From: Williamsia muralis NBRC 105860
GTDB taxonomy: Bacteria > Actinomycetota > Actinomycetes > Mycobacteriales > Mycobacteriaceae
Length of the DNA: 64,000 bases
NCBI RefSeq assembly: GCF_001598915.1
Contig: NZ_BDAP01000001.1
Location: 1,054,001-1,118,000 of the forward strand
Direction: 5' to 3'
Shown: positions 26,471 through 42,786 of the stretch, piece by piece
Position numbering within the stretch: the stretch's first letter is position 1
How the letters are laid out: every line of letters begins with the position of its first letter
Program-made: the position numbers and the translations under genes
Notes under the pieces: generated by a model
What the model saw: only the letters and a program-made list of their open reading frames with translations
Database searches by the model: none
Told to the model about the DNA's origin: nothing

Positions 26471-26540
26471 GGGCAAAGCGTACTTCCAGCCCCAGTCGAA
26501 TCAAAGAGAAGTCTGGTCACGACCGTAACCAGACCCTATT

Positions 26541-27578: not shown

Positions 27579-27672
27579 CGACGCGGTCTGACGGCCGTCC
27601 GTGGTGTGGCCAGTGAGGCAGCGGCGAGCCATGCCCGGGTGGCGCGTCGACACCCAGGCACGCGCCTCGGTG

Positions 27673-27753: not shown

Positions 27754-27895
27754 GAAGTTCCTTTCGGCGATGTTCGAACTGATCTGATCGCCGATGCGCA
27801 CTCTGCTCGGCGACCGGGATGACAATCGCATCCAGGCCGCCGTTTTGTCTGCGAAACAAACTGTCTTTCGTGCAGCAAATGTCGGGTTCAAAAGG

Positions 27896-27948
27896 GTGGT
27901 GCCCCCTCTCGGGCTCGAACCGAGGACCTGCGGATTAAAAGTCCGTAG
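27896..27948. repeat. Left attachment site (attL), 53-bp copy of tRNA-Lys 3' part
   Basis: Identical to 40749-40801 over 53 bp. It contains the complement of the CCA end, acceptor 3' strand, T-arm, variable loop and anticodon arm of tRNA-Lys, and then diverges (TACAGGC instead of CTCTACC). It is not a functional tRNA gene because the D-arm and the 5' half are missing. Confidence 0.95.
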
Positions 27949-29102: not shown

Positions 29103-29159
29103 ATCGCGATCATCGCACTGGCCACAGGCATCCTGCGCGGCCCCGGAACCTGCTGACGG

Positions 29160-29513
29160 TTAGTCCTTCCCGAGCCACTCGCGCCAGTCCTCGCGCTTTC
29201 CTGTTGTGGGCTTCGCTTTGGCGCTGTTGACCGTGATGTGGGTCTTGCATTGCCAGCAATCGAAGGTAGATCGGTTCCGCTCAATGTTCTGGCGGGCGTT
29301 GCAGCGAGGGCAGGTGACGGCTTTCATTCCAGGTGGCGCAGCGGGTGTGCCTGTGACGGCGGCAGCGATGACGATTCCGATGAGTCCGAGTAGGGCACCG
29401 ACAAAGAAAAACGCCGCGAAGCTCCGGTCTTTGCGCGCGGCGAGCTCGGCAGCGATCCAGCCGCACGCGAACTGGACTACTGCGATGACAATAACGACTG
29501 CTTCTTCACTCAT
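29160..29513 (-). CDS. Two-helix membrane protein with zinc ribbon
   Basis: 117 residues. Two N-terminal membrane helices (about 5-23 and 34-53), then a cytosolic zinc-ribbon with CPRC and CWQC (about 69-88), and a charged tail ending EWLGKD. Similar TM-plus-zinc-ribbon proteins occur widely in actinophages and prophages with no known role. It lies upstream of the 271-aa cargo gene on the same strand, and diverges from the XRE repressor gene. Superinfection exclusion is one possibility, by analogy only. Confidence 0.7.
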   Translation of the reverse strand: MSEEAVVIVIAVVQFACGWIAAELAARKDRSFAAFFFVGALLGLIGIVIAAAVTGTPAAPPGMKAVTCPRCNARQNIERNRSTFDCWQCKTHITVNSAKAKPTTGKREDWREWLGKD

Positions 29514-29653
29514 TTGCTAAGGCCTTCCGTCGTCTCCTTGGCGGGGCTCCTGGCCGCCGCAGGGAAGCATACGGTAAGAAATGGCGCCTGAGCTGGAGAT
29601 ACGACGTTTCTACTCTGGGCCGATGTGCGCTAGACGTATGAGCTTGCCTGGAC

Positions 29654-29902
29654 ATGTCTGCCACGCCGAAGCCGCCCCTGAACGCCACGCTCGCCGCGTT
29701 TGGCGCTCGGGTGCGTGCCCGAAGGGTGGAACTCGGTTGGAGCCAGGAAGACGCCGCGCAGGAGATCGGGGTGCACTGGACCTACTTGGGCCAGGTGGAA
29801 CGCGGTCAACGCAGCGCCCGTATTGAGAACATTCTCAAGCTTTCAGCGGGTTTGCAGACCACGCCGGGGCAGTTGCTCGACGGCCTCGACGTCGAGGACT
29901 GA
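29654..29902 (+). CDS. XRE/Cro-CI-type DNA-binding protein, candidate element repressor
   Basis: 82 residues. Helix-turn-helix of the Xre class: RVRARRVELGWSQEDAAQEIG then VHWTYLGQVERGQR, with LKLSAGLQTTPGQLLDGL closing the five-helix domain. There is no extra oligomerisation domain. It sits between the leftward cargo pair and the rightward capsid/replication genes, the usual location of an immunity repressor. A 14-bp perfect palindrome overlaps the 3' end of its own gene ahead of a TATAAT box. Confidence 0.85.
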   Translation: MSATPKPPLNATLAAFGARVRARRVELGWSQEDAAQEIGVHWTYLGQVERGQRSARIENILKLSAGLQTTPGQLLDGLDVED

Positions 29903-29947
29903 TACGGAACGACCCTCGGCCCGGTACGGACTCACGGTCGCTATAAT
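29884..29947 (+). promoter_or_regulatory. Candidate capsid-operon promoter with palindromic operator
   Basis: A perfect -10 hexamer TATAAT at 29942-29947 preceded by GC (extended -10-like), without a good -35. Thirty-odd bases upstream lies CCTCGACGTCGAGG (29884-29897), a perfect 14-bp palindrome within the last codons of the XRE gene. This could be the repressor operator. The capsid gene starts 130 nt downstream, so a leader of about 120 nt would be made. Confidence 0.4.
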
Positions 29948-30078
29948 CGGCCTAGTCGATTCGTCGGAGACGGACGGCAGCAGTTCGTGTTAGTGCGGCG
30001 CAGAGCGCGCAGCTCCCGAGGCTGGTGGCCCGGAGTGAGAACACACCCTCATTTCAGTCATTCACCCTTGGAGCCCTC

Positions 30079-31290
30079 ATGTCTCACAACTTGATCTATC
30101 CCAACGTCGATGCCTACCTCAAGCCGATCTTCGGCTCCGAACGTCCAGTGCGTCGAGGCATCAGCTCGCAAGGCGACGTTCTCGTCAACCAAACTGTCGA
30201 TGGCATCGACCTTAACGAAATCTGGGACGAGTGGGCCGATGTCCTCGAGCTGTGGAACAGCGAACGAACGACCATCGCTTCCCTGCTCAGCTACTACACA
30301 ACCCGAAAGGGGGAAGCGGTACCGCAGACCCTCGGTCAGATGAAGTTCGAGCAGGCATCTGAGTTCGGCGTTCCTCAATCGGGTCGCGCCGATGCAACAC
30401 CGCTCCGCCTTGGCTACACCTTCGACGACTACGACCTGCGACTGGCCACGACCTGGCGCTACCTGCGAGACGCAGACTCCCGGCAACTAGCCGCGAACTT
30501 CACCGAAGCGATCGAGGCCGACAACCGCCTGCTGACCGGCTCCGTTCTGAGTCGGCTCTTCGACCCTGCCCCTTCTGCCAACGAAGACGCCACAACCGTC
30601 TACGGGCTGTACACCGGCGACGACGGCATCGCACCTCCGCCGTACATGGGCCGAGAGTTCCCGGTGGATACGACGCACTACTTCACCACCGGCACAACGG
30701 TTCTGGATAGCAAGGACATCGAGGATGCGATCAAAGCCATCACCAGCAAAGGCTACGGTCCTTCAGCAGGAGCTCAGCTGGTGATCTTGTGCAATGAGTT
30801 CGAAGCCGACGTGATCAGCACCTGGCGTCGCGGCGAGCCTTCCCGCGACGCCACTGCCGAAGAGTTGGCGGTAGACCCCGAGGCCAAAGGCCCGGTCGCC
30901 AAGTTCGACTTTGTTCTAAGCGCGTCTGCACCGGCCTACCTCACCGAAGAAGTCATCGTCGGCCAGCAAGCGCCGGGCAGCTACAAGGGGTTACCCGTTT
31001 ACGGTTCGTACGGCGAGGCATTTGTTATCAAGACGAACTTCGTGCCAAATGGCTATGTGGCCGTGGTCGCTACCGGTGGCCCGAACTCGGAACTCAACCC
31101 GATCGCCATCCGGCAGCACCCGAACACTGCTTACCAGGGCCTTCGTGCGATCGGCGGCGCGGACCAATACCCACTGCAGAACAGCTTCTTGCAGCGTTCG
31201 TTTGGTGTGGGTACCCGTCGCCGTGGCGCTGCCGCTGCGATTCAGGTGACGACGGGTTCGACCTACGTTGCCCCAAGCTTCCCTGTCTAG
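30079..31290 (+). CDS. HK97-fold-like major capsid protein
   Basis: 403 residues. The ATG at 30079 has GGAG 6 nt upstream and fits better than an upstream in-frame start. Features resembling phage capsid proteins: an acidic N-arm, a helix-rich middle (FTEAIEADNRLLTGSVLSRLF, a spine-helix-like segment), and a C-terminal A-domain-like stretch with NPIAIRQHPNTAYQGLRAIGG and NSFLQRSFGVGTRRRGAAAAIQVT. No N-terminal delta/protease target region is obvious, and no prohead protease gene is nearby. The nearest analogue by context is the capsid gene of phiRv1/phiRv2. An encapsulin-like shell is the alternative. Confidence 0.65.
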   Translation: MSHNLIYPNVDAYLKPIFGSERPVRRGISSQGDVLVNQTVDGIDLNEIWDEWADVLELWNSERTTIASLLSYYTTRKGEAVPQTLGQMKFEQASEFGVPQSGRADATPLRLGYTFDDYDLRLATTWRYLRDADSRQLAANFTEAIEADNRLLTGSVLSRLFDPAPSANEDATTVYGLYTGDDGIAPPPYMGREFPVDTTHYFTTGTTVLDSKDIEDAIKAITSKGYGPSAGAQLVILCNEFEADVISTWRRGEPSRDATAEELAVDPEAKGPVAKFDFVLSASAPAYLTEEVIVGQQAPGSYKGLPVYGSYGEAFVIKTNFVPNGYVAVVATGGPNSELNPIAIRQHPNTAYQGLRAIGGADQYPLQNSFLQRSFGVGTRRRGAAAAIQVTTGSTYVAPSFPV

Positions 31291-31301
31291 CAGCACGCCG
31301 C

Positions 31302-31345
31302 AGCCGGTCAGCGATAGGTGTGCTCCCACCTACCGCTGGCCGGCT
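31302..31345 (+). promoter_or_regulatory. Long hairpin between capsid gene and next gene
   Basis: The arms AGCCGG-CAGCG-TAGGTG and CACCTA-CGCTG-CCGGCT pair over about 18 bp, with one wobble and one mismatch, around a 6-nt loop. There is no T-run after it, so it is more likely an attenuator, RNA-stability element or weak terminator than a classical terminator. It would let the capsid gene be expressed more strongly than the genes downstream. Confidence 0.55.
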
Positions 31346-31370
31346 CGGCCTCCCTTGAAAGAGTGCGCAC

Positions 31371-31598
31371 ATGAGTCGTGATGACGACGACGCCGAGTTC
31401 TCGTTGCCGCCCACCGGTCGTAGTTCGCGTCGGCGCGGTCGCGTGACCGCTGTTGCTTCGGCGACTATCGGGGGTGATCGATACCTCGGGCAGATCGCTT
31501 CGGAGACCATAGAAGACGCCATCGTCAAGCAGGCCACGCACCCCGGCAGCCCGGCCACCGTTCCACTGCCCAAACGCACTCGCCGCGCGAGTCAATAA
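31371..31598 (+). CDS. Small basic protein after the capsid gene (75 aa)
   Basis: Begins MSRDDDDAEFSLPPTG, then has a basic patch (RSSRRRGRVTAV), a short helix (LGQIASETIEDAIV) and a basic tail (PKRTRRASQ). GAAAGAG gives a ribosome-binding site. The acidic-then-basic charge pattern and the position directly after the capsid gene suggest a capsid-associated, DNA-condensing or head-completion protein. No homology recognised. Confidence 0.55.
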   Translation: MSRDDDDAEFSLPPTGRSSRRRGRVTAVASATIGGDRYLGQIASETIEDAIVKQATHPGSPATVPLPKRTRRASQ

Positions 31599-32027
31599 AA
31601 CGCGAGTTTGCGCCGCAGCGGAACAACTTACGTCCCTGAGACGCCGCCTCGCGAGTTTCGACGGACTGCCGCGTACCTACCTACCGCGAGAAAAGCCTCA
31701 GAAATGCCAAAACGACTGTGTAGCAGTCACTCCCGACAGGTCGATAGTAGACGCCGCGCGTCGGAACGAGTACGCTCGGGAGTACCGGGTCGCGCAGGCG
31801 GGCCCGCTGCGATACGCAACGACGTTACTGAAGAGACACGAAACCGCAGTTGCTTGGTAAGACCGCGAGGGAGGTGGACCCCCCTCCGTGAACGCCGTTA
31901 GAGGTGCATGAGCGGCCCCAGACTTCTGGGCACGCACTGAGGCAACTAGCGAAAACAGGCACGCATCAACTGACAAGCTGGTCAGGGGAGCGTGCTTGCG
32001 TTCTCCTGCCCTACCCAGGAGGGCATC
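31599..32027 (+). other. Regulatory/non-coding stretch ahead of the excisionase gene
   Basis: 429 bp without a convincing gene. Visible items: repeated CGCGAGTTT words (31601-31609 and 31650-31658 region), a short hairpin CCCAGA-CT-TCTGGG at 31917-31930, and a pyrimidine/purine-rich patch near 31870-31888. One rightward frame of 97 codons is Arg/Ser-rich, lacks a ribosome-binding site and looks like a chance frame. Likely a leader or control region for the early genes. Confidence 0.5.
32003..32024 (+). promoter_or_regulatory. Hairpin that can hide the excisionase ribosome-binding site
   Basis: CTCCTG (32003-32008) is complementary to CAGGAG (32016-32021), and GCCCT (32008-32012) to AGGGC (32020-32024). 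Either pairing covers AGGAGGG (32017-32023), the Shine-Dalgarno sequence of the GTG start at 32028. This could keep excisionase translation low unless the RNA is opened. Confidence 0.45.
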
Positions 32028-32249
32028 GTGGAAACTCAGAATCAGCACTACCGTGGAGAGCAGTCAGCCGCTGGCCGCATCGCCGAGAAATACGGGGTGC
32101 AATGCAGTGGTCGCTACATCAAGAGTGAAACGGAAGCCGGGCGGCTCCCGGTCGTGATTTTTGCTCATCAAAGGTGGTATTCCGAAGCCGATTTGGACGC
32201 CTGGTTCGCGTCGAAGCGCAAGTCGGTTGCTTCTGGTGGTGCCGCATGA
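32028..32249 (+). CDS. Excisionase-like winged-helix DNA-binding protein
   Basis: 73 residues from GTG at 32028, chosen because AGGAGGG lies 5 nt upstream. The sequence GRIAEKYGVQCSGRYIKSETEAGRLP followed by WYSEADLDAWFASKRK is the MerR-like winged helix of the helix_turn_helix_17/excisionase family. In phiRv1 and related elements a similar gene (Xis) lies beside the primase gene. Expected role: bend DNA at the attachment sites and direct the integrase toward excision. Confidence 0.75.
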   Translation: METQNQHYRGEQSAAGRIAEKYGVQCSGRYIKSETEAGRLPVVIFAHQRWYSEADLDAWFASKRKSVASGGAA

Positions 32250-33115
32250 GCGCTAATCTGACCCCTGGACGTAGAGCTGAACTCACCAGAAGATTCGAGT
32301 TGGATCGACGTCGCGAACGGCGAAGCCTGGCCAATCCTGAGATTGAGGCAGATGAGGCGAGCCTGCGACTAACGGCGCGGTTGTCGTCGGGGGCGGGAAG
32401 CAACCCGATTGTCGGCCCAATCGTGGAGAACTATGTCAAGGGGCCCTTCACCCTGGCCGACTATTCACTATTGGTTGCCGTGCTCTCCTACATCCATTCG
32501 AATCTCACCCGTCGGGGCCCTGCGCCGTGGCGGGCCGATGGTTACTCAGACGAGCAGATAGTCGACCGGACCGAAACCCGCTGGCTCGCCCAGGACCGAG
32601 TCGACCGATATGCCGAGCTGCTGGAGTCTGTTGGACTCGGGCGTGCGGGGCAGGTGGAGGTCGTGCTGCACGGCAAGGGAGCGCCGAGAGTGACGGGTGG
32701 TGAGAACCGAACCGCGGCATCGGTTGCGTTTCCAATCATTCCGAATCCCGTGATCGAGATTCCGTCGACCATCGCGGACGTCGGGATCCCGTTGGCGGGC
32801 GAAGAATGTGAGCCAGCATTTGCTTGGCCGTTATCTCGCATAGTCATTCGGCTGATGAGCCTGTTTGCGTCTGAGTGTCTCTTCTGCCCCTTGCTCGACA
32901 ACCAGCTACGTCATGATCGGGGTTCGCATCCGGACCAAGCTTTGGTAGTCGGGCGGGGCCAACGTGTCCATGTCTTCCCGGTATGCGTGTGGTGCATGCG
33001 AAAGATCGAACGGCCGTACTACGACGACGATGACCTTGATCCAAACGTCTTGACGTTCATGGGCAACGACGACTTCCTCGCACAAGTCGGCCACCCAGAA
33101 CAAAAGTGGTACTGA
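32246..33115 (+). CDS. Unknown early protein with paired CxxC motifs
   Basis: 289 residues; ATG overlaps the excisionase stop (ATGA). The N-terminal half is helical and charged (GRRAELTRRFELDRRRERR, VLSYIHSNL, LAQDRVDRYAELLESVGLG), somewhat like a replication-initiator winged helix. The C-terminal part has CLFC and CVWC about 40 residues apart with intervening His (LRHDRGSH), an arrangement that could bind one zinc ion. An HNH-like or zinc-ribbon fold is possible. Gene order places it with the replication module. Function unknown. Confidence 0.65.
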   Translation: MSANLTPGRRAELTRRFELDRRRERRSLANPEIEADEASLRLTARLSSGAGSNPIVGPIVENYVKGPFTLADYSLLVAVLSYIHSNLTRRGPAPWRADGYSDEQIVDRTETRWLAQDRVDRYAELLESVGLGRAGQVEVVLHGKGAPRVTGGENRTAASVAFPIIPNPVIEIPSTIADVGIPLAGEECEPAFAWPLSRIVIRLMSLFASECLFCPLLDNQLRHDRGSHPDQALVVGRGQRVHVFPVCVWCMRKIERPYYDDDDLDPNVLTFMGNDDFLAQVGHPEQKWY

Positions 33116-33124
33116 CCTCCATCA

Positions 33125-33175
33125 CAACCTGGTGGGCCAGGAGCTTATGTAGGAAGCAACCTGGCCCACCAGTTG
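33125..33175 (+). promoter_or_regulatory. Strong 13-bp inverted repeat ahead of the primase gene
   Basis: CTGGTGGGCCAGG (33129-33141) and CCTGGCCCACCAG (33160-33172) are perfect complements. The 18-nt loop contains a further AGCTT/AAGC pairing, and CAAC/TTG extends the stem with one bulge. No T-run follows. It lies between the stop at 33115 and the primase start at 33231. Options: intercistronic terminator or RNA-processing site, or a protein-binding or single-strand initiation hairpin for replication. Confidence 0.6.
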
Positions 33176-33230
33176 ACGTCGACGCGATCGACGTAACGAA
33201 TTCCCCTGTGCTGCAGAAAGAACCGCAACT

Positions 33231-35477
33231 ATGAGTCTATCGCATGAACCGCCGCTACCTCCCGCTGAAACCGCGACGCTACAGCACCCCGTTTCGCGAC
33301 ACCCAGTGCCTTCTGGTGCCACTTACGCAGACGCCTATCCTGTGTATCTGTCCAGGGGTTGGGACTCGCCTCTACCTCTCCCGAGAGGCAAGAAGAAGCC
33401 GCCGCCGAAAGGGCTGACTGGGCGTGGTAGCGCCAGACCTACCGCTAACAGGCTCAAAGAACTGGCCAAGACCCACCCCGGCGGCAATCTGCTACTTCGC
33501 CTGCCTGACAACGTCATCGCGATTGACGTCGATTGCTATGACGAGAAGCCGGGGATGGGAACGATCGCGGAATTGGAGCAGGAGGCCGCAGCCTCACTTG
33601 CGGCGACGTGGTCTTCGACATCGCGGCAGGATGGCAGTCGGCAGATGTTCTATCGGGTACCCGACGGGTTGGAATGGCCCAGCAACGTCGGACCAGGTGT
33701 CGAGTTAATTCACGCCTCCCATCGCTACTCGGTCGTCTGGCCCTCAGTACATCCGGACGGCCGTCAGTACCGCTGGCAGAGCCCGGAGGGGGAAGAGGCG
33801 AGCGTGCCACCCCGCCCGGAAGACCTAGCGGACTTGAACCCTGCGATCGTGCAGGTTCTTACCGCGCGCGCAGCGAACCCGACGGAGAAGGCAGACGAGA
33901 CGGCAGGAATCGCGCTTCTCGACGCACTCCCCGCAGGACCTGCGGGCGCGGACGTACTCGAAGTTCTGGCCAGAGGGCTGCAGGAACTGCCTTCGTCTCG
34001 CCACGAGGCGGCTCGCACAACACTCAACCGCCTACTGCGCATGGGGGAGCAAGGGTCTTCCGGCGTGCGAGATGCGATCGGTGAGCTTCGAGCCGCGTTT
34101 GTGCGTGAGGTCGCGAATCGTGCCGGTCCGAACGCTGCGGGCGAGGAGTTCGACTCCATGCTCCGCTCCGGTAGCCGATTGATCGCAGGCGACCCAACGT
34201 CAGACGCAGACCTCGCTGACTGGGCGCTAGCCCACGAAGCCTTCGGCCCTGGCGGACGGTGGAACCCTGACACGCCTGGCACCCTCGCGAACCGAATGGC
34301 CCAGGCGTCAAAACGAACAGCACACACAACGGTTACCAACGGTGAGCGGGGGTCCATCTTCAAACTAATGTCGGCTGACGAATGGGCAAAGCCCGTGCCG
34401 AAACCGGCGTTCTTGATTCGAGGGGTGCTAGTCGGAGATACGTTTGGAGTCGTTGCTGGCCCGAAAAAGTCTCTTAAGACTCACGAAAACCAAGCGATCG
34501 CGTTAGCAGTCGCCACCGGACAAAACCTGTACAACCACAACCAATTTGAGGTGGCCAGCTCACGCCGAGTGCTGTACATCGTTGGCGAGGGCGGCGAGTC
34601 CGATGTGCGTCGAAAGCTGCGACGGATGTGCCGCGCATATGGCGTGGACCCAGCTGATGTAGCTCGCGACCCCGCATTCCCGCTGCAGGTTGCTTTCGGT
34701 GCCGCTCCGATGAGCGAGAAGCGGTTCAGTGACGAGCTGAAGGGCATGTTGGACACCGCGCAGCCAGACCTGGTGTTGATCGAGTCGTTCTACAACTTCC
34801 ACCCCGCAGACGTCGAAGCGTCCAACCTGTACCAGCGAGGGCAGGCAATCGACGGGTTCCACAGGTTCGTGCGACGCCAGTGCGAAGGCGCGACGTCGCT
34901 GATGACTGACCACTATCGCTCGACTGCGGGCAAAGGCAATGACCTGGACATGATTTCGATGGCCGGCCAGGCGGAAAACGCAGACAGTTGGATTACCAGG
35001 TACCACCGGCACCCACCCGAGGTCGACAAAGGAGACTTCTCGTTACGCGTGAGCTTCAACTCTCGCCAGTGGGGCGGGCGCGAGTGCGACATCGATTGGC
35101 ATCTGGGGGCGTTCGATCCTGACACCGGAACGCACGACGGCGAAATATCGTGGACCGTACACGTGGGAGACGACGGCTCAAGTCCTCAAGACAGCGGGGC
35201 GCGGACGCTTGAGGGGCGCAAAGAGATAGTTGCCGATTGGATTTCGACGCATCCGGAGATGTCGAAGACCAGTTCTACCGAAGCGCTCGCCAAACAGTAC
35301 GCGATGCACCAGAAAAACTTCCGCGAGGCGTGGTCTGTTCTGGAAGGCGACAAGCGCATCTATCAAACCAGCGACAAGCTGCCCTTTGGCAGCGACGGTC
35401 GCACTCGTAACAAGCAGGTTTGGAAGGTTCGCGACAACGGTTTTCTGTTCGGTTCGGACAACGGGAGTGTTCGATGA
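33231..35477 (+). CDS. Prim-pol / AAA (RepA-like) replication protein
   Basis: 748 residues. N-terminal bifunctional primase-polymerase domain: metal-binding IAIDVDCYD (about 98-105), then SRQMFYRVPDG and ELIHASHRYSVVWPSVHPDG, typical of AEP prim-pol proteins. A helical linker (about 215-380) leads to an AAA_25/RepA-type ATPase: Walker A-like GPKKSLKT (410-417), ILYIVGEGGESDVRRKLRR, and a hydrophobic strand ending in acid, DLVLIESF (about 515). The C-terminus (about 650-730) resembles a winged helix. Such proteins start and drive replication of phages and satellites, acting at a nearby origin. The repeat cluster directly downstream is a good candidate. Confidence 0.85.
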   Translation: MSLSHEPPLPPAETATLQHPVSRHPVPSGATYADAYPVYLSRGWDSPLPLPRGKKKPPPKGLTGRGSARPTANRLKELAKTHPGGNLLLRLPDNVIAIDVDCYDEKPGMGTIAELEQEAAASLAATWSSTSRQDGSRQMFYRVPDGLEWPSNVGPGVELIHASHRYSVVWPSVHPDGRQYRWQSPEGEEASVPPRPEDLADLNPAIVQVLTARAANPTEKADETAGIALLDALPAGPAGADVLEVLARGLQELPSSRHEAARTTLNRLLRMGEQGSSGVRDAIGELRAAFVREVANRAGPNAAGEEFDSMLRSGSRLIAGDPTSDADLADWALAHEAFGPGGRWNPDTPGTLANRMAQASKRTAHTTVTNGERGSIFKLMSADEWAKPVPKPAFLIRGVLVGDTFGVVAGPKKSLKTHENQAIALAVATGQNLYNHNQFEVASSRRVLYIVGEGGESDVRRKLRRMCRAYGVDPADVARDPAFPLQVAFGAAPMSEKRFSDELKGMLDTAQPDLVLIESFYNFHPADVEASNLYQRGQAIDGFHRFVRRQCEGATSLMTDHYRSTAGKGNDLDMISMAGQAENADSWITRYHRHPPEVDKGDFSLRVSFNSRQWGGRECDIDWHLGAFDPDTGTHDGEISWTVHVGDDGSSPQDSGARTLEGRKEIVADWISTHPEMSKTSSTEALAKQYAMHQKNFREAWSVLEGDKRIYQTSDKLPFGSDGRTRNKQVWKVRDNGFLFGSDNGSVR

Positions 35478-36212
35478 TGCAGCTGCAGCCAAGTAGCCAG
35501 ACGAGCCTACGCACAACCGCCGGTCGGTTCGGGAAGGCCTCCGGCCGGGCATCGGCCGGGTATCCCCGGCCCGAAAAACGATGCCCGGCCGCGACTGCGC
35601 GGAGCAGCCGGAGATACCTGCTTGGAGCTGCATTTACGTGCGGAAACGATGTCCGGCCCGGATAGCCGGGCATCGGCCGCATATCGTCCGTCGAGGATCG
35701 AAAGGGCGCCGGAGAGGGCCGTTTCCGGCCCTCCGGCTCGTCCTATAGGGCCGGGCATCGTCGGCCGGGCATGCAACCGGAGGACGAGGGAGGGTCAGTT
35801 AATAGCCGCTAACTCAATTTAGCCACTTGCCGAATACCTCTCTCGCGACGTCTATTTCGCCTCACCGAACCGGCGCCTTGGCTGTAAGTGCGATGCCTGA
35901 CTCGGCTGTGCTGGAGAAACGCCAGCCGCCATCGTAACGAGATGAAAGGAGCGACCCGCCGAACGACTGCTAGATGCCCTTCAGCATGGGGAGCGTTGGA
36001 GCTAGGTGGGTAGGCGACGCTGCTGCGCACGGTCGATCGCCGATAGCTACGGCGACTACGGCTCGGCAAGCCTAGATATGAAGTGGCTGAACATCATTCG
36101 GATACTGATTGCAGATCGCTGGCGTAACGTAAGCGGCGTCGAAAACCTGAAAACGGTCGTTAAACGATTCCGACGCCGGGCGACCTGGCAGAACAGAGTG
36201 AAGGGAAGAACG
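35478..36212. other. Non-coding region with candidate origin, before the recombinase genes
   Basis: 735 bp. The first 300 bp carry the iteron-like repeats (separate entry), a hairpin at 35708-35737 (GCCGGAG-A-GGGCCG pairing with CGGCCCTCCGGC), and an AT-richer patch with AGTTAATAGCCGCTAACT near 35797-35814. The second half (35823-36212) has long stretches with stops in all frames. No convincing gene. Confidence 0.6.
35543..35773. repeat. Six iteron-like copies of GGCCGGGCATCG, candidate replication origin
   Basis: Copies at 35543-35554 (+), 35579-35590 (-), 35647-35658 (-, one mismatch: CGATGTCCGGCC), 35665-35675 (+, first base differs), 35749-35760 (+) and 35763-35773 (+, last base missing). 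The 35647/35665 pair forms an inverted repeat. The cluster starts 65 bp past the prim-pol gene and is followed by an AT-richer patch. This is the layout of initiator-binding sites plus an unwinding element. Confidence 0.6.
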
Positions 36213-36977
36213 ATGAGCACATCGTCCAACCGCGCCGAAGCACTACGGCGCGCCCTGGCATCAGGCAGCGCGCCCATCCCGCGAGAGGTGGTACCAGCCG
36301 ACGGCACGAAAGATGCCGCAGTACAACAGGTATTGCCGCTGCGGTTGATTGGGTACGCGCGGGTGTCAACTGCAGAGCAGAGTGTCAAGGGCTACGGACT
36401 CCGATCGCAAGGCGAAGTGCTGCAACAATATTGCGCATCGAGGGGCCACGAGCTGCTGACAGTGACGAACGACGTCATCAGCGGTAGCAAGGCGGAGCAG
36501 ATGCACGGGCGAGCAGTCGCCATCGCTGCGGTCGAAGCCGGTCTGGCGGACGGGTTGCTGGTGCGTGCGCTTGACCGTGCAACCCGCGACCAGCTCGACG
36601 CAGCAGAACTGTACAAGCGAGCAGAGAAGCGCGGATGGCGGCTGATGGATTGCGACAACGCAGACAGCAGCGACCCGAGCCAGCGGCTGACGGCAGACAT
36701 ACGCCTCGCCGTGGCAGCGGAAGAACGCAGACGAATCAGCTTGCGGACGCGCGAAGGGTTGGCGCGTGCAAGGCGTGAGGGTAAGAAGCTTGGCCGGCCG
36801 AGTCGGATCGCACCTTTCATTGTGGAAGAAATCGTGCTGATGCGACGCGACGAAGGGATGGGGCCGAAGGCAATTGCAACGTGCCTGGACGAAGCAGGCG
36901 TGCCAACACCAGGCGGCGGAGAGCGGTGGCACTACGCGACCGTGCGGCGAGTGCTCCAACGAGAGGGTGTGGCCTGA
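36213..36977 (+). CDS. Serine recombinase (resolvase/invertase family)
   Basis: 254 residues; AGGGAAG precedes the ATG. After a 45-residue extension comes the resolvase catalytic domain: YARVSTAEQSVKGYGL with Ser52 as nucleophile and Arg50, DGLLVRALDRATRDQLD, and RISLRTREGLARARREGKKLGRPS as the E-helix. A C-terminal DNA-binding segment with GPKAIATCLDEAGVPTPGG and WHYATVRRVLQR follows, like the start of a Recombinase domain. It is much shorter than phage-type large serine integrases. One nucleotide separates it from the tyrosine integrase gene, so both are made together. Perhaps a resolvase for multimers or a relic of a second integration system. Confidence 0.85.
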   Translation: MSTSSNRAEALRRALASGSAPIPREVVPADGTKDAAVQQVLPLRLIGYARVSTAEQSVKGYGLRSQGEVLQQYCASRGHELLTVTNDVISGSKAEQMHGRAVAIAAVEAGLADGLLVRALDRATRDQLDAAELYKRAEKRGWRLMDCDNADSSDPSQRLTADIRLAVAAEERRRISLRTREGLARARREGKKLGRPSRIAPFIVEEIVLMRRDEGMGPKAIATCLDEAGVPTPGGGERWHYATVRRVLQREGVA

Positions 36978-36978
36978 G

Positions 36979-38427
36979 ATGGCATACATACGCGCTTATG
37001 ACACAACCCAGCGCCGAAAAGGCAAAGCGGTCAAGCGATATGAGGTTGTGTGGACGGAGCCAGTGCGGGATGCGATGGGGCTACCAGTGCCCGTCGATCC
37101 GTCAAACGCCAGCGGCAAGAAGCGCCAGCGCTCACGGCAAGAGAGTTACAGCACTCGCGAAGCGGCAGAAGAACGGCGCGACCAGCTGAACGCGGCAAGG
37201 CGTACGTCCACAGGCACGGCCACGCTCGCGGATCAGCGCAAGGCAGGTGACCTACCAGTCGGCCACTATGCGCGAGAGTTCATCGAGTCCATACGAGGGA
37301 CAGTCAAACCGAGAACAGTCCGAGAGACGGAGTCGGTGTACCTGCGCTACATCGCAGAACCGTTCGGCGGCAGAGCGGTTGCTAGCTTGACGGCGGCGGA
37401 CGTTCGACACTTCCGCGCCGACCTGTTGTCGCCGAGACCGCGCCGCAGCTATGACACGCGTTCAGTGAACCGGGCGGAGGTTGACCCGAGTAAGGCGACT
37501 GAGTTGGTGACGCTGTCCCGTTCGACGGCCAAGCACGCCTACGACGTTCTGCGGCGAATCCTGGATGTCGCGGTGGTGGATGGGGCACTTCACGCGAACC
37601 CGGTTCACTCCGTGCCATTGCCCCGGCAGGCCGCGACTGTTCGGACGACGGACCCGACGACAGGCGAGCCCCGCGTGTTCAAGGCGTCGCCGTTGACCGG
37701 CGCGCAGGTTGCCGCAGTCGCGGGCCACATGGCCGAGAAGATGGGCCGTCCTATCGACGCCCTAGCCGTCACTTTCAGTGCTTATACCGGCGTCCGAGCA
37801 GGGGAGCTACGAGGCTTGGAACTAGGCGACCTCGACTTGCCGGAGCGGTCGGGCGCTCCCGGCTCGGTATCGGTGACGCGTACCAAGACGCGGCGTAGGG
37901 GCGGCTGGGAAGTGGGCACGCCTAAGTCGGCCCGTTCTACGCGGGTGGTGCCGATAGATGGCTGGCTGGCCGATGATCTGCGCGCGTACCGTGCAAGCCA
38001 TCCCCGCCGACTCGACCCGGCTGCGCCGTTGTTTCCAGGCAGGATGTCACGCGCCGAGGCGAAGGCGGCAGGGGTGAACGCGAATGACCCGACAGCGACC
38101 GTGAAGTGGTCGGAGCCGATCAATACCGACAACGTCTCGGACCATTACTACACACCCGCCCTGGCGGCCGTGGGCGTTCCTCAAGCCCGCTGGCACGACC
38201 TGCGGCATACGTTCGCGGTCCTAAGCCTGAGTGCGGGCGAGCACTACATGCAGGTCTCGAAGTGGCTGGGACATGCGTCATTCGTGACCACGCTGAACGT
38301 GTACGCCGACTACATTTCGGAGGTGGAAGGCGGGAAGAAAGCGCCGCTTACGCGTCCTGAGCTGGCGCTTCCGGCGCAGCGGGATCAGTCGGCTCCGTCG
38401 AATGTGGTGAGTCTGTTTGGGCGATAG
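36979..38427 (+). CDS. Tyrosine recombinase/integrase
   Basis: 482 residues. N-terminal arm-binding part (KGKAVKRYEVVWTEP, with SYSTREAAEERRDQL), a core-binding SAM-like domain (about 95-220, KPRTVRETESVYLRYI), and the catalytic domain: Arg273 in TGVRAGELRG, Lys in the VTRTKT region, HDLRH (His406, Arg409), His432 in LGHAS and nucleophile Tyr442 in LNVYADY. All catalytic residues are present. This is the likely integrase for the tRNA-Lys site. Its 3' end overlaps the convergent DUF4062 gene by 80 bp. Confidence 0.93.
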   Translation: MAYIRAYDTTQRRKGKAVKRYEVVWTEPVRDAMGLPVPVDPSNASGKKRQRSRQESYSTREAAEERRDQLNAARRTSTGTATLADQRKAGDLPVGHYAREFIESIRGTVKPRTVRETESVYLRYIAEPFGGRAVASLTAADVRHFRADLLSPRPRRSYDTRSVNRAEVDPSKATELVTLSRSTAKHAYDVLRRILDVAVVDGALHANPVHSVPLPRQAATVRTTDPTTGEPRVFKASPLTGAQVAAVAGHMAEKMGRPIDALAVTFSAYTGVRAGELRGLELGDLDLPERSGAPGSVSVTRTKTRRRGGWEVGTPKSARSTRVVPIDGWLADDLRAYRASHPRRLDPAAPLFPGRMSRAEAKAAGVNANDPTATVKWSEPINTDNVSDHYYTPALAAVGVPQARWHDLRHTFAVLSLSAGEHYMQVSKWLGHASFVTTLNVYADYISEVEGGKKAPLTRPELALPAQRDQSAPSNVVSLFGR

Positions 38428-39505
38428 GCGGTGAGTCCTCGGGATCACCGACCTTTCCTGAACCCCCAGCAACAGGGCTGGGCTTCTTGACAGTCATGAG
38501 GTCGGCTAAGTAGGCCTGACCGGTGGGCGTCAAGCGCAGATACTTGTTGGCGTCGCTCACTGCGCGTCTTTTAGTTCCACTCTCAATCATTCCCAAGAAC
38601 CGAAGATGGACCACGACCTTTTCAAACTCATCCTCGGATGCATACAGCCGCTTATTTGGCACTTTGTTGACAGCTTCTATGTCACTCTCGCTCATTCTGC
38701 CGTGGTACGCGCAGAGTTTGAGCTTCTCCTTCACCTCGTCCTCTGTTGCCTCATCAATTAGAGCGGGGCCGATCGCCTGGATAATGTCGTCCCAGGTGAC
38801 GGTGGTTATCGGGTCTGCGCTCGACTGACCCGTGAGGCGTGAACGTACTGCGATTTGGAGCTCGATCTCGTCAGAGCCGTGAGCCAGCGACGCTTCATCT
38901 AAGCCGGTCGAGTTTTCGATGCGGAGGCTTTGTGACTGCTCCCGCGCTTCGGCCAGCTCTGCTCGCAATCTGAGTATCTCGCGTTCAGCTTCGTCGCCCG
39001 CAGCGGAGTCGCCACGTATCCAGCCGATGCCGGGTCTCGTGCGTATAGCTCGATTGAGAGCGCGAGATACTTTCGAACCCAGCTCGTCCGCGGTGAGGAA
39101 GTCTGCGACGACTCGGTCTTGCATCACGCGAGAACGAAACTTCGCCAGCAGCTCCCGGGACTCATCATCTTTGTCCGTCTTCCCCTGCGCAATGTCATCA
39201 GTATTCCCGTGGACGAACGCGAGCACATGTTTGCCCTGTTGGAGAGCGTAGTTGAACTCTTGTTCGGTAAAGCTGATGCCATCCTTCGTTCGGCTGCCGT
39301 ACCGGCCTCCGACTATCAGGACGTAGTAGTCGGAGAGGTCAATGACATCTCGAATCAGCTCCCATTGGGTCTCGTCGGCTGCGACGAATAGTTCCATGCC
39401 GGCCGGGATGCAGTCGAGTTCAAGTATCGCTTGGGTCACCTGGCGACGTTCCTCGATCAGATCGACGTACGTCGAGCTGACAAAGACCTGATAGCGCCTA
39501 TCCAC
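38348..39505 (-). CDS. DUF4062 protein, candidate defence-module component
   Basis: 385 residues from a GTG. N-terminal DUF4062 (about 1-100): RYQVFVSSTYVDLIEERRQV, DLSDYYVLIVGGRYGS and SFTEQEFNYALQQGKHVLAFVH. This Rossmann-like domain is related to TIR/nucleotide-processing folds and is often found at the head of NACHT or WD40 proteins. Then a coiled coil (ILRLRAELAEAREQSQSLR), a winged-helix-like region (FEKVVVHLRFLGMI, YLRLTPTGQAYLADL) and a disordered acidic/Pro tail. Its start overlaps the stop of the upstream gene (TAGTG). Third gene of a leftward operon at the tRNA end of the element. It overlaps the integrase gene antisense by 80 bp. Confidence 0.82.
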   Translation of the reverse strand: MDRRYQVFVSSTYVDLIEERRQVTQAILELDCIPAGMELFVAADETQWELIRDVIDLSDYYVLIVGGRYGSRTKDGISFTEQEFNYALQQGKHVLAFVHGNTDDIAQGKTDKDDESRELLAKFRSRVMQDRVVADFLTADELGSKVSRALNRAIRTRPGIGWIRGDSAAGDEAEREILRLRAELAEAREQSQSLRIENSTGLDEASLAHGSDEIELQIAVRSRLTGQSSADPITTVTWDDIIQAIGPALIDEATEDEVKEKLKLCAYHGRMSESDIEAVNKVPNKRLYASEDEFEKVVVHLRFLGMIESGTKRRAVSDANKYLRLTPTGQAYLADLMTVKKPSPVAGGSGKVGDPEDSPPIAQTDSPHSTEPTDPAAPEAPAQDA

Positions 39506-39924
39506 TAGAAGTCCCTGTCTGTATCGACATGCTTCGCAAGGTCGCCGATGTTCACAGTTATGGCCTCCTGGCGACCACGCTTCTCGCCCGCTGAACCGCG
39601 CTCGGTCTCGATGCGGTCTCTGGCGAAGATGGTGAAACTGAGCGAGCTGAAAGGTGAGTTGGTTCTGAAAGTCTGGGCCCGGGAGAACCTCGGGAACACA
39701 TCGAACACCTTCACACGAAGCTTCTCCTGAGGAATCGGACCTAGTGATGCGCCCGTCTCCGGGTCCTCGATGGAGTTTTCCTCGCCTGCCTCGTTGTATA
39801 GCGCAAATATCATTCCAGGCCGCACGCCCGAGTTAGAACCGCGATTGATGACGATGGTGTGCTCGTCCTCGACGGCGGCCACCTGTCCGGCTATCTGCTC
39901 AGGGTTAGTTAGAAAGTTCGCCAT
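39505..39924 (-). CDS. FlgT-C-like small beta protein
   Basis: 139 residues. GAGGGAAAA precedes the ATG at 39924. The central pattern INRGSNSGVRPGMIFALY, a DPETGASLG turn, and a following strand pair LRVKVFDVFPRFSRAQT match the FlgT C-terminal/OB-like domain, seen in envelope proteins and in many uncharacterised bacterial proteins. The C-terminus is charged (RDRIETERGSAGEKRGRQEA). It overlaps the 2TM gene by 20 nt and the DUF4062 gene by 1 nt. Probably an adaptor between the other two products; that is inference. Confidence 0.7.
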   Translation of the reverse strand: MANFLTNPEQIAGQVAAVEDEHTIVINRGSNSGVRPGMIFALYNEAGEENSIEDPETGASLGPIPQEKLRVKVFDVFPRFSRAQTFRTNSPFSSLSFTIFARDRIETERGSAGEKRGRQEAITVNIGDLAKHVDTDRDF

Positions 39925-40624
39925 TTTTCCCTCGTTCTTGGCCGCTGTCAGTAGAAGGCTTTGTTTCCCCGTCACGCGTGACCGTCTGCGGGTTGGTACC
40001 GAGAACGATCTTCGGCCGGTCCGCGAACGCCCGTTCGTCATCGGAAAAGTTCGTTTGAGCCGTTGTGAAGCCGTCAATGGATAGAAGTTCCCACTCGCGG
40101 GTGGCCTGCTGAGCGGTCATCAGAGTTAGTTCCGTAGCGGTCTTGGCCTGACCCATTCGAACGATCGCATCGCCGATGTTTTCTGAACCCAGGGCGAGGG
40201 CGGCTTCCTGAATCTTCTCGTCGGCGTATTGCACCCCATTGCTGAGGTTGAGAGTCGTGTAGGTGGCGCTCCGGACCCGTAGCTCTAGCGTTTTTTCCGC
40301 GCTCAATCGGTGGTACAGGTGAGTCGTGACGCCACCGATTGCGATCGCAAGCAACGGTACTGCCGCCACCACGCAAAACGTGCCAAAGGCGCCATCGCCA
40401 TCGATTAGCGCCCCTGAGAGGCTTGAAACCAGAAGGGTTACTAGCCCTGCAAGCGCGTAGGCAGGCCACCAGCGGTAAAGGTGGTGGGGAGTTTTAGCCG
40501 CTGACCTCTCAGCCACCGGCGCTGGAGGTGACGCTGGCGACTTTGGTGTTGGCTTCGGCGACGCTGGCGGGTTTGGCTTCGGCGGCTCTGTCGCGCCCTC
40601 GCCAGCATCTCCTGATTCGACCAC
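39905..40624 (-). CDS. Two-helix membrane protein, first gene of cargo operon
   Basis: About 239 residues; the start is uncertain (GTG at 40624 or TTG at 40627; no strong ribosome-binding site). A Pro/Lys/Ser-rich cytosolic N-terminus precedes two membrane helices (about 54-74 and 81-103). A long helical cytosolic part follows (EKTLELRVRSATYTTLNLSNGVQYADEKIQEAALALG and TELTLMTAQQATREWELL). Two close helices with a long amphipathic tail resemble SLATT-type 2TM effectors, which form pores in conflict systems, but I cannot show homology. The arm-site repeats at 40675-40696 lie about 50 bp upstream, probably inside its promoter region. Confidence 0.68.
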   Translation of the reverse strand: MVESGDAGEGATEPPKPNPPASPKPTPKSPASPPAPVAERSAAKTPHHLYRWWPAYALAGLVTLLVSSLSGALIDGDGAFGTFCVVAAVPLLAIAIGGVTTHLYHRLSAEKTLELRVRSATYTTLNLSNGVQYADEKIQEAALALGSENIGDAIVRMGQAKTATELTLMTAQQATREWELLSIDGFTTAQTNFSDDERAFADRPKIVLGTNPQTVTRDGETKPSTDSGQERGKNGELSN

Positions 40625-40674
40625 CAATGGATCATGCCATTTGGCCCCGACAACCCCGCCCCGGCGCGCGGTGG

Positions 40675-40696
40675 ACCGGGGCGAAACCGGGGTGAC
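40675..40696 (+). promoter_or_regulatory. Tandem 11-bp repeats, probable integrase arm-type sites (right)
   Basis: ACCGGGGCGAA directly followed by ACCGGGGTGAC, the counterpart of the pair at 28097-28118. They lie 53 bp inside the right attachment repeat and about 50 bp upstream of the first gene of the leftward cargo operon. Integrase bound here could block or modulate that operon. Confidence 0.6.
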
Positions 40697-40748
40697 GGGG
40701 CTGAAGCGACTAGGCCGGAAACGCCGTAGCGCTTCGACCTGGGTGTTC

Positions 40749-40801
40749 GTGGTGCCCCCTCTCGGGCTCGAACCGAGGACCTGCGGATTAAAAGTCCGTA
40801 G
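40749..40801. repeat. Right attachment site (attR) inside tRNA-Lys
   Basis: 53 bp identical to attL, here as part of the complete tRNA-Lys gene. Because the element supplies the same sequence, the tRNA stays intact after integration. Recombination between the two copies would release a circle of about 12,853 bp. Confidence 0.95.
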
Positions 40802-40825
40802 CTCTACCAACTGAGCTAAAGGGGC
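40750..40825 (-). tRNA. tRNA-Lys (anticodon UUU)
   Basis: Reads GCCCCTTTAGCTCAGTTGG at the 5' end, anticodon loop CTTTTAA with TTT, T-loop GGTTCGAGCC, discriminator A and an encoded CCA. The acceptor stem pairs GCCCCTT with AGGGGGC (one G-U). Complete cloverleaf. Its 3' part is the integration site of the element on the left. Confidence 0.97.
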
Positions 40826-40848
40826 GTGCCCATTTCAGGGCGCAACGA

Positions 40849-40854
40849 AGTTTA
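40849..40854 (-). promoter_or_regulatory. Candidate -10 box for tRNA-Lys
   Basis: On the minus strand TAAACT lies 24 nt upstream of the tRNA 5' end, at the right distance for a short-leader tRNA promoter. No clear -35 seen. It faces away from the tRNA-Glu promoter. Confidence 0.35.
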
Positions 40855-41021
40855 CAAGACGGCGGCGTGGGGTCGTGTAGTCGGGGCACGCGGTCGGTCG
40901 GTGTGCTGCCGCACGCGTTCGGTCGCCGAGCACGTGTTTGAACACGGGCGTGGTGATCGATGCGGTGCGTCGTCGACCGGGAGTGGCAAACTGTTCAAAT
41001 AATGCGGGCTGACCTGCTGAT

Positions 41022-41051
41022 TTGGGATTTTCTGCGCCCGTGTCCTAAGCT
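41022..41051 (+). promoter_or_regulatory. Candidate promoter of the tRNA-Glu/Asp/Phe transcript
   Basis: TTGGGA (41022-41027) and TAAGCT (41046-41051), 18 bp apart, fit an actinobacterial housekeeping promoter. The tRNA-Glu 5' end is 28 nt past the -10 box. The three tRNA genes follow within 350 bp and end at a strong terminator, suggesting one transcript. Confidence 0.5.
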
Positions 41052-41078
41052 GATTCAGCTCCCTTACGGAGAACACCG

Positions 41079-41151
41079 GCCCCCTTCGTCTAGCGGCCTA
41101 GGACGCCGCCCTTTCAAGGCGGTAGCGCGGGTTCGAATCCCGTAGGGGGTA
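41079..41151 (+). tRNA. tRNA-Glu (anticodon UUC)
   Basis: 73 nt. Anticodon loop CTTTCAA with TTC, T-loop GGTTCGAATCC, D-arm TCGTCTAGCGGCCTAGGA typical of tRNA-Glu. Acceptor GCCCCCT pairs with AGGGGGT (G-U at the first position, as in mycobacterial tRNA-Glu). Confidence 0.95.
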
Positions 41152-41182
41152 CGCGAGCCAGATGACACTGGCAAGCATGCAA

Positions 41183-41256
41183 GGCCCTGTGGCGCAGTTG
41201 GTTAGCGCGCCGCCCTGTCACGGCGGAGGTCGCGGGTTCGAGTCCCGTCAGGGTCG
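41183..41256 (+). tRNA. tRNA-Asp (anticodon GUC)
   Basis: 74 nt. Acceptor GGCCCTG pairs with CAGGGTC; anticodon loop CTGTCAC with GTC; T-loop GGTTCGAGTCC; discriminator G as expected for Asp. Confidence 0.96.
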
Positions 41257-41324
41257 CTTTACATCTCCGGTTCGCCGGAGATCGCAACACCAAGTTCGAT
41301 TGGCATTCGGTTCGGGTGCCGTCC

Positions 41325-41398
41325 GGCCAGGTAGCTCAGTTGGTACGAGCGTCCGCCTGAAAAGCGGAAGGTCGTCGGTTCGATCCCGACTCTGGCCA
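41325..41398 (+). tRNA. tRNA-Phe (anticodon GAA)
   Basis: 74 nt. Acceptor GGCCAGG pairs with TCTGGCC; anticodon loop CTGAAAA with GAA; T-loop GGTTCGATCCC; discriminator A followed by CC. Order Lys, Glu, Asp, Phe matches the block found in mycobacteria. Confidence 0.95.
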
Positions 41399-41417
41399 CC
41401 GTTATCGCAGTCCACGA

Positions 41418-41448
41418 AGTCCGATCCTCTCCGAGGGTCGGACTTTTT
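41418..41448 (+). terminator. Intrinsic terminator after the tRNA genes
   Basis: AGTCCGATCCTC and GAGGGTCGGACT form a 12-bp stem (one G-U) with a 3-nt loop, followed directly by TTTTT. This classical form is unusual for high-GC actinobacteria. It ends the tRNA transcript and could also protect against read-through from the leftward EAL gene that stops at 41494. Confidence 0.92.
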
Positions 41449-41493
41449 GCATTCTGAGTCGAGCTGATTCCCTGACCTTGACTGTTCTGCCGC

Positions 41494-42786
41494 CTATGGC
41501 CGCGCACTCGAGAGCATCGGGAATGCGTCGGCGGGCTGCGCGGCGGACCAGTGATAGCCCTGCCCGTAGCGGGCCCCGACGATGCGTGCCTGGTGTGCCT
41601 GTTCAGCGGTCTCGATGCCTTCGATGACCAGGAATTGGCCCAGCTCGGCGGTGAGTGCGGTCAAGGCGCGGGCGATCGCGCGTCCGGTCGGTGTGTGCAG
41701 CGACGACCCGACGCTACGGTCGGCCTTGAGGCCGTTGACGCCGATCGCGAGCAAGTGTTCGGCGGGCAGCCAGGGACCGCCGATGTCGTCGAACACGACG
41801 ATGTAGCCGCGCTCCCGGAGATCGTCTATGACGTGGGCATCGATGAGCGCGGTGGTGGGTACGGCAACCGATTCGGTGATCTCGAGGGTGACTGACGAAG
41901 GGGCCACGCCGGCCGCTGTGGTCACCTTGTCGATCCGGTCGGCGCAGTCGGGACGATAGAAGTGGTGGGCGGAGAAGTTGACCGCGACCCCGATGTGGTC
42001 GGCATCGATGCGTTCGCTGCGCCACCGCTGCAGGTCGGCAACCGCCCGGGCCAACATGGTCAGGTCGAATTCGATGATGAGATCGGTGTTCTCGACCAGC
42101 GGTATGAAGGAGTCGGCGGCCAGCACCCCGCGCGCGGGGTGCATCCACCGCGCCAGTGCTTCGACGGCCGTGAGCTCGCCGGTCTGCAGGTCGACGATCG
42201 GCATGTACCACGGCACGATCTGGCCGTTGTCGATCGCCGCGGACACCTCGCCGATGCCGAGTTCGGCATCACCGTGGCTGCGGGGCGCCCCGGCGCCGAT
42301 CGCTATGCGACTGTTCTGCGAGCGTGCCGCGTCGAGGAGTTCACCTGCCAGGACCGCGCAATGTTGCAGCGCCACCAGATCGAATCCTTGTGCCGTGTGC
42401 GGCTCGGTGTCGAGGACGCACAGTGTGGCCACCGGCAGGTCTTCGCGACCGAGCAGGGGGATGCCTGCGTACGCACGAAAACCGGCGCGGCGCAACGGAT
42501 CTGCGACTTCTTCATCTGCGTCCGGACTGGCGGAGTCGAGAATGGTCACCGGCGCACCCCGCCTTATCACCCCGGCGCACGCGGACGTGCTCAGTGGAAC
42601 AACGATTCCGGTGTCGAATCCGTGAGCAGCGACGGTGTGCTGATGCGTTCCGTCGACCACGTTGATCAAAGCGATCGGACACCTGGTCACCTGCGCGGCG
42701 AGGGCAAGCACGGAAGTCAGGCCGAGAGAAGGTGTGATCCGCGTGTAGTGCGACGCCGACTGCGCGCGCCGGTCGTCTTCGGCCAT
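41494..42786 (-). CDS. GAF-EAL cyclic-di-GMP phosphodiesterase
   Basis: 430 residues; GGGAG 7 nt before the ATG. An N-terminal GAF domain (about 15-160: VTRCPIALINVVDGTHQ, AYAGIPLLG, VATLCVLDTEP) is followed by an EAL domain (about 185-425). Catalytic residues look complete: VEAL, VNFS, EITES, FDDIGG, LKADRS, IEGIET and GQGY. It should therefore hydrolyse c-di-GMP under control of a small ligand or redox signal at GAF. It shares the locus with a second EAL protein and an ANTAR protein; no GGDEF synthase is seen in the window. Confidence 0.9.
   Translation of the reverse strand: MAEDDRRAQSASHYTRITPSLGLTSVLALAAQVTRCPIALINVVDGTHQHTVAAHGFDTGIVVPLSTSACAGVIRRGAPVTILDSASPDADEEVADPLRRAGFRAYAGIPLLGREDLPVATLCVLDTEPHTAQGFDLVALQHCAVLAGELLDAARSQNSRIAIGAGAPRSHGDAELGIGEVSAAIDNGQIVPWYMPIVDLQTGELTAVEALARWMHPARGVLAADSFIPLVENTDLIIEFDLTMLARAVADLQRWRSERIDADHIGVAVNFSAHHFYRPDCADRIDKVTTAAGVAPSSVTLEITESVAVPTTALIDAHVIDDLRERGYIVVFDDIGGPWLPAEHLLAIGVNGLKADRSVGSSLHTPTGRAIARALTALTAELGQFLVIEGIETAEQAHQARIVGARYGQGYHWSAAQPADAFPMLSSARP

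Follow-up and report, generated by a model that had tools for sequence, protein, structure and literature searches.

Swarozyc (Swz) is an anti-phage defence family described in a preprint of May 2026 (PMC13174449), which presents DUF4062 proteins as TIR-like NADases. According to this preprint, KpSwz is triggered by the phage portal, depletes nicotinamide adenine dinucleotide (NAD+) and defends by abortive infection; it is a single-gene system that joins sensor and effector in one protein and needs no partner, and its auxiliary (AUX) domain has a helix-turn-helix (HTH)/winged fold. The preprint also locates around 20% of the bacterial DUF4062 homologues in defence islands, and mentions that some DUF4062 genes share operons with other enzymes. 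Here we describe a three-gene operon that ends in such a gene in Williamsia muralis NBRC 105860, at 38348-40624 of the window, the whole 64,000-nucleotide stretch that was analysed (contig NZ_BDAP01000001.1, positions 1,054,001 to 1,118,000). The operon lies inside a satellite-like element integrated at a tRNA-Lys gene and encodes, in order, a protein with two predicted transmembrane helices (2TM), a small protein resembling the C-terminal domain of FlgT (FlgT-like), and the DUF4062 protein. We lean towards regarding this cassette as two stacked anti-phage modules, a Swz homologue and a 2TM/FlgT-like pair.

The DUF4062 protein and its operon

The DUF4062 gene (38348-39505, minus strand, GTG start at 39505) encodes 385 amino acids (aa), comprising an N-terminal DUF4062 (TIR-like) domain (Pfam PF13271, E 4.8e-28), a coiled-coil-like stretch, and a C-terminal auxiliary region of HTH/winged type. 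Residues 1-341 match phrog_15411 (E 2.3e-90) and residues 1-263 match KpSwz (PDB 10wc/11cq/11cv; E 2.1e-52), and a profile of nine homologues, the window protein included, aligns with chain positions 3-325 of KpSwz (E 2.1e-119). Glu81 falls on KpSwz chain position 82, the sole glutamate of that motif and presumably the catalytic E97 of KpSwz; this putative catalytic residue is kept in all nine rows of the profile alignment (A7), and among 13 homologues aligned separately 12 have it. We therefore class the DUF4062 protein as homologous to KpSwz, with the predicted catalytic glutamate retained and with a predicted stalk and HTH/winged auxiliary region like those of KpSwz. The N-terminal DUF4062 with its glutamate motif, the stalk, the C-terminal HTH/winged region and the mobile or defence context are all shared with Swz, a likeness that rests on sequence. 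The differences are that the window gene is the last of a three-gene operon, behind the 2TM/FlgT-like pair, and that the extreme C-terminal tail of its product is antisense integrase sequence.

Swz homologues occur without a FlgT-like neighbour in all 12 viral contigs and four plasmids examined, and those of three viral contigs (L086, L087 and L091) stand alone, in the direction opposite to the adjoining genes. A scan of the phylum with the DUF4062 protein at E <= 1e-25 returned one of 396 genomes, the window's own, and scans of viral contigs with the window's DUF4062 and FlgT-like proteins, plus three more FlgT-like proteins, returned no relatives.

The operon starts with the 2TM gene (39905-40624, minus strand, GTG start at 40624; 239 aa), followed by the FlgT_C-like gene (39505-39924, minus strand, ATG start at 39924; 139 aa). 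The open reading frames (ORFs) of these two genes overlap by 20 nucleotides (nt), and the FlgT-like and DUF4062 ORFs by 1 nt (TAGTG). The three genes sit between the end of the tyrosine integrase gene (38427) and the tRNA-Lys (40750-40825), with the 3' end of the DUF4062 gene antisense to that of the integrase gene over 80 nt (38348-38427). A sequence-only reading of the window had proposed just such a set of three leftward overlapping genes in a satellite cargo position between integrase and attachment (att) site, encoding two membrane helices, a small FlgT-C-like protein and an N-terminal DUF4062. All of this is borne out, the FlgT-C resemblance by a sub-threshold Pfam match and the cargo position by the repeat, empty site and slot exchange described below. 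Two of its further suggestions fail at the sequence level. An NLR-like protein is not supported, as Pfam models find no nucleoside triphosphatase domain (NACHT or NB-ARC) in the 385 aa of the DUF4062 protein. SLATT effectors have two transmembrane helices and a long helical tail, as the 2TM protein seems to, but none of 11 family members matches the SLATT Pfam model. SLATT, NLR and PADLOC-listed systems were consequently dropped as identities, for lack of profile support; no PADLOC model matches any of the three operon proteins, the library being of 2023 and older than Swz. The operon is more than a chance arrangement, since it is exchanged as a unit and since hosts with no close kinship also have an overlapping pair of membrane and FlgT-like genes.

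The exchangeable cargo slot of the tRNA-Lys element

The exchange is seen by comparison with the Williamsia genome G076, whose sister element uses the same att site and is 89% identical in the integrase, 76% in the head protein and 82% in the recombinase. In bins of 30 alignment columns, similarity is 0.87 at 38392-38421, 0.53 at 38422-38449, and 0.17-0.5 thereafter; the likeness ends at the integrase 3' end and restarts at 40645, and therefore the three genes were swapped as a unit. The exchange cassette derived from this comparison covers 38428-40644, its left boundary being good to about 30 bases. In its place, G076 has a DUF4145 protein matching PD-T7-4 (PADLOC, E 6.4e-13) and two genes with one hydrophobic segment each. 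Since the interval is replaced as a unit, and by a set with one PD-T7-4-like gene, the three-gene cassette is exchangeable and probably defensive.

Within the bacterial family, 44 of 401 genomes contain a homologue of the head gene of the element (E <= 1e-60). Twenty regions with a related head gene were fetched, and a slot was defined as a related integrase less than 3 kb from a tRNA with ORFs between them, which gives 10 slots (L169, L173, L174, L176, L177, L179, L180, L187, the window and G076), L175 and L185 being set aside for orientation or a second element. The satellite of genome G053 (L173, the same locus as L072) carries in this slot the 2TM/FlgT-like pair alone. The contents elsewhere are DUF5677 (L176), DUF5343 plus HEPN_Swt1 (L187), proteins like those of G076, as judged by eye (L174 and L180), and uncharacterised proteins (L169 and L177). 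Proteins with one transmembrane segment and a coiled-coil-like stretch, alike by eye and lacking a Pfam match, recur as cargo (L146 8901-11067, L174 2420-4008, L180 16224-17111). Throughout the satellites with a related head gene (L168-L187 and window 27896-40801), several tRNAs are used, and differing convergent cassettes lie between integrase and tRNA. Cargo hotspots of phages and satellites have reportedly been studied as fixed satellite positions with variable immunity-type cargo; the slot described here resembles them in both respects and belongs to a different satellite family.

In 7 of the 10 slots, going by ORF calls rather than annotated genes, the last cargo gene is antisense to the integrase end, the overlap being 80 nt in the window, 89 in G076, 62 in L174, 59 in L180, 12 in L177, 11 in L176 and 4 in L173. 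Unrelated last cargo proteins have a common C-terminal tail (window 38348-38427; L146 8901-8989) because their 3' ends read into the antisense of the conserved integrase end. A comparable overlap is found in Tha/Ith of Staphylococcus aureus phages, described as a noncontiguous operon where the inhibitor gene overlaps the defence gene antisense (PMC11087260). Both cases involve antisense overlap of defence and phage genes, whereas in the window the overlap is with the integrase; by analogy, it could help to silence the cargo upon induction.

The element itself is bounded by two 100% identical copies of a 53-bp att repeat (27896-27948 and 40749-40801), the right one inside the tRNA-Lys, which is on the minus strand; the repeat delimits 12,853 bases. 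The empty site is present in the Williamsia genome G092, where window stretches 25699-27948 and 40749-42048 map to adjoining stretches that share one 53-bp copy at an uninterrupted junction. The flanking markers of the site are present in all nine Williamsia genomes; among the eight taken into the att-copy count (G106 was left out), there are two copies in the window, G010 and G076, and one in the other five, within the stretch covered. On the plus strand, the element encodes a major head protein (30025-31290; phrog_3990, E 2.5e-95), a primase/AAA replication protein (33231-35477; Prim-Pol E 2.9e-22, AAA_25 E 1.2e-15), a serine resolvase-type recombinase (36006-36977, start codon uncertain; Resolvase E 2e-27) and the tyrosine integrase (ORF 36874-38427, the real start being uncertain and probably downstream; Phage_integrase E 6.8e-9, phrog_1 E 2.1e-46). 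ORFs 28287-29102 and 32174-33115 have no PHROG match, and neither a portal nor a terminase was found among the element ORFs scanned. With its att boundaries, integrase, replication gene and incomplete virion gene set, the element is, by predicted gene content, of the phage satellite or mini-prophage type. Since its scanned genes include no portal, portal sensing would not need to strike the element itself.

The 2TM/FlgT-like pair

By simple hydropathy, the 2TM protein contains a closely spaced pair of hydrophobic segments, at residues 56-74 and 78-96, followed by a long C-terminal tail. It has relatives in Mycobacteriaceae and no match in Pfam, NCBIfam or PADLOC, its PHROG matches (E 0.69 and 0.95) being meaningless. 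The FlgT-like protein is a small beta-type protein lacking a hydrophobic segment and predicted to be cytoplasmic. Its match to FlgT_C (PF16538; E 8.3e-5, 23.4 bits) falls under the Pfam cut-off of 27; at E <= 1 the domain is recognised in 19 of 26 relatives, in the best case at E 9e-6 and 26.5 bits, and the family profile finds TsaP in the PDB (E 3.2e-6). The similarity to these envelope-associated domains and to the MreC barrel is weak, and with the FlgT C-terminal domain and TsaP it includes the DPxTG motif. However, the scanned members stay below the Pfam cut-off, stand alone with 100-170 aa and, where computed, lack a hydrophobic segment; in addition, the window-type gene has a membrane-protein gene as its neighbour on mobile elements, while TsaP consists of LysM plus a FlgT_C-like domain. 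A flagellar function was rejected, the FlgT_C match being below threshold only.

Matches to the 2TM protein at E <= 0.01 appear in 37 of 301 genomes, of which the 11 with the strongest matches (E <= 1.9e-6), the window's own genome among them, were accepted as relatives. The remaining matches probably arose by chance and were set aside, apart from L052 (G046), whose region was fetched and shows no FlgT-like gene. L044 and L049 have a 2TM homologue and no FlgT-like ORF that could be found, and fall outside the 26 pair loci, which comprise 23 with computed spacing, two fused ORFs (L043, L070) and L050. Twenty of these loci are actinobacterial, and the pair is also found on plasmids of Psychrobacter, Glutamicibacter, Candidatus Megaera and the archaeon Haladaptatus, and in phages P7.1 and Funu1. 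The two ORFs overlap in 21 of the 23 loci and are separated by 1 and 11 nt in the others; in L072, the FlgT-like ATG is at 5813, one base past the upstream stop. In two genomes of the family both proteins are fused into one ORF (L043 8954-10078, L070 5290-6555). The conserved partner is the FlgT-like protein. Wherever hydropathy was calculated, the protein encoded upstream of it shows one or two hydrophobic segments, that of L072 excepted; Funu1 was judged by eye. Within the order, 14 of 397 genomes, including that of the window, have a FlgT-like gene, and the distribution of the pair is patchy (14/397; 11/394).

The pair is linked to mobile and defence genes, since a tRNA adjoins 4 of the 16 pair loci scanned (window, G010, L047 and L072), and since a FlgT-like gene without the pair partner lies directly before an Abi_2 gene in five of seven phage-type loci of Firmicutes/Fusobacteria (Javan321, Javan374, phi575, an L. 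curvatus plasmid with prophage genes, and iA2). Of the two remaining loci, P7.1 has an integrase after the FlgT-like gene, and in Funu1 the next gene is outside the scan. In the five loci, listed as L008, L079, L080, L082 and L096 (Firmicutes phages, prophages or satellites), this succession of a FlgT-like and an Abi_2/AbiD-type gene lies near the integrase. The AbiD/Abi_2 systems (PF07751) of Firmicutes phages thus resemble the window in adjoining FlgT-like genes beside an integrase, whereas the window cassette lacks an Abi_2 gene and the Abi_2 effector is of HEPN type rather than an NADase. Gordonia and Mycobacterium phages have a FlgT-like gene with neither pair partner nor Abi_2, small plasmids carry the pair without adjoining defence annotation, and in the Haladaptatus plasmid (L078 3989-10273) the pair is followed by a very large AAA-domain gene.

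Two modules or one system

A Swz gene was found near 2 of the 26 pair loci, namely the window and L073, from another family, where it is convergent with the pair and outside its operon. The search used a Swz-specific profile on stretches of 4.7-19 kb round the 25 other pair loci, from which distant DUF4062 proteins could escape. A strict triad was therefore rejected as a recurring system. The W. muralis genome G010 also has an island at this tRNA-Lys, 3 kb long and bounded by att copies (L011 5180-8300), in which the pair is followed by a TIR protein (TIR_2, E 3.2e-10); no integrase-sized ORF was called there, and a second tRNA-3'-end-like stretch is seen inside by eye. The flanking chromosome is 90-96% identical to that of the window and the pair 71%, so either the pair has a line of descent apart from that of the site or its sequence changes rapidly. 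A short ORF in this island (L011 6481-6666), DUF4062-like by eye (ISSPGDT), has no Pfam match and was left uncounted.

The reading as two modules, which we hold to be the probable one, builds on the G053 satellite with the pair alone, the 24 of 26 pair loci without Swz, and the occurrence of Swz without a FlgT-like neighbour. In the first module, the C-terminal auxiliary region of the DUF4062 protein would bind a structural protein of the infecting phage (the portal in the case of KpSwz), aligning the TIR-like domains, so that NAD+ would be destroyed and the infected cell would die ahead of phage release. In the second, the translationally coupled pair would respond through the small cytosolic FlgT-like protein, probably a sensor or adaptor holding or gating the 2TM protein, which may act at the inner membrane by depolarisation or by blocking DNA entry.

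Several observations weigh against this interpretation. The single window sequence reaches only residue 263 of 385 against KpSwz, the longer profile match including the query itself, and a Tenacibaculum plasmid homologue, the sole exception among the 13, lacks the motif glutamate. The membrane partner in L072 stays below the hydropathy threshold along its whole length, and the membrane partners of different groups share their topology, but their sequence homology could not be demonstrated (hhalign probability 1.6%) and was discarded as a claim. The pair also seems stably chromosomal in some mycobacteria (L046, L048 and L050, with common neighbours). Finally, one overlapping operon and one exchange cassette fit a single system too, and finding Swz twice and TIR once beside the pair exceeds what chance would lead one to expect and could mean partnership. 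These contacts are suggestive because Swz is rare at the threshold of the phylum scan; however, defence genes accumulate in the elements of a single hotspot in any case, and the contacts are raw counts.

Such a partnership would make the operon one three-component system, in which sensing or scaffolding would fall to the FlgT-like protein, membrane placement of the complex to the 2TM protein, and killing to the DUF4062 NADase. The two overlaps, the joint exchange, the neighbouring Swz of L073 and TIR of G010, the Abi_2 genes beside FlgT-like genes, and the DUF4062 genes that share operons with other enzymes according to the preprint (PMC13174449) all speak for it. We nevertheless judge it unlikely, given the pair loci without Swz, the convergent orientation in L073, the pair alone in G053, and KpSwz, which defends alone (PMC13174449). 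With a similarly low probability, the pair may be non-defensive, either as a module of the satellite or phage lifestyle (helper interference, lysis, a holin-like function or superinfection exclusion) or as a recruited envelope module. Its weak similarity to FlgT_C, TsaP and the MreC barrel, its stable mycobacterial copies and its presence on small plasmids lacking defence annotation would fit, but its patchy distribution, its positions by tRNA and integrase, and its Abi_2, Swz and TIR neighbours argue otherwise, and the sister satellite G076 lacks the pair, which is therefore not required for the life cycle of the element. Regulation of the NADase by the pair, which might for example hold the enzyme back before infection or during induction of the element, in the way that Ith acts on Tha, appears quite improbable: translational coupling to the DUF4062 gene, the antisense overlap of inhibitor and defence genes known from Tha/Ith (PMC11087260) and the antisense cargo of 7 of the 10 satellites are set against a pair that mostly occurs without Swz and a KpSwz that is described as needing no partner (PMC13174449).

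A broader and rather doubtful proposal makes the FlgT-like protein the adaptor common to a defence family that has escaped notice and spans bacteria, archaea, phages, satellites and plasmids. This adaptor would be translationally coupled to a membrane anchor, or stand alone after a regulator region, and would recruit interchangeable killing modules: NADases of Swz or TIR type in actinobacteria, HEPN proteins of Abi_2 type in Firmicutes phages. The window operon would then represent the variant with coupling of all three, anchor, adaptor and NADase.

Regarding the earlier sequence-only reading, the candidate defence role it assigned agrees with the Swz homology and with the PD-T7-4-like gene in the G076 slot, but the expected recurrence of the triad reduces to one of 25 other loci, L073, where Swz is convergent. 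The roles it distributed were partly wrong: in KpSwz, one DUF4062 protein is both sensor and effector (PMC13174449). A housekeeping envelope function, which would have told against it, did not emerge, the FlgT-like gene being this sparse in the order, even if certain copies in mycobacteria seem fixed in the chromosome. The claim of an undescribed system holds in part: the NADase gene belongs to the known Swz kind (PMC13174449), whereas the pair and its coupling to a DUF4062 NADase were not found described in a literature search with subscription papers mostly outside its coverage.

The locus places a recently described family of NADase defence proteins in a natural, swappable satellite cassette. 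It also brings to light an overlooked and broadly spread pair of membrane and FlgT-like genes, which travels with tRNA-integrated elements and immunity genes, and the satellite family defined by the head gene, with its 44 of 401 genomes, offers a ready list of more cargo cassettes.

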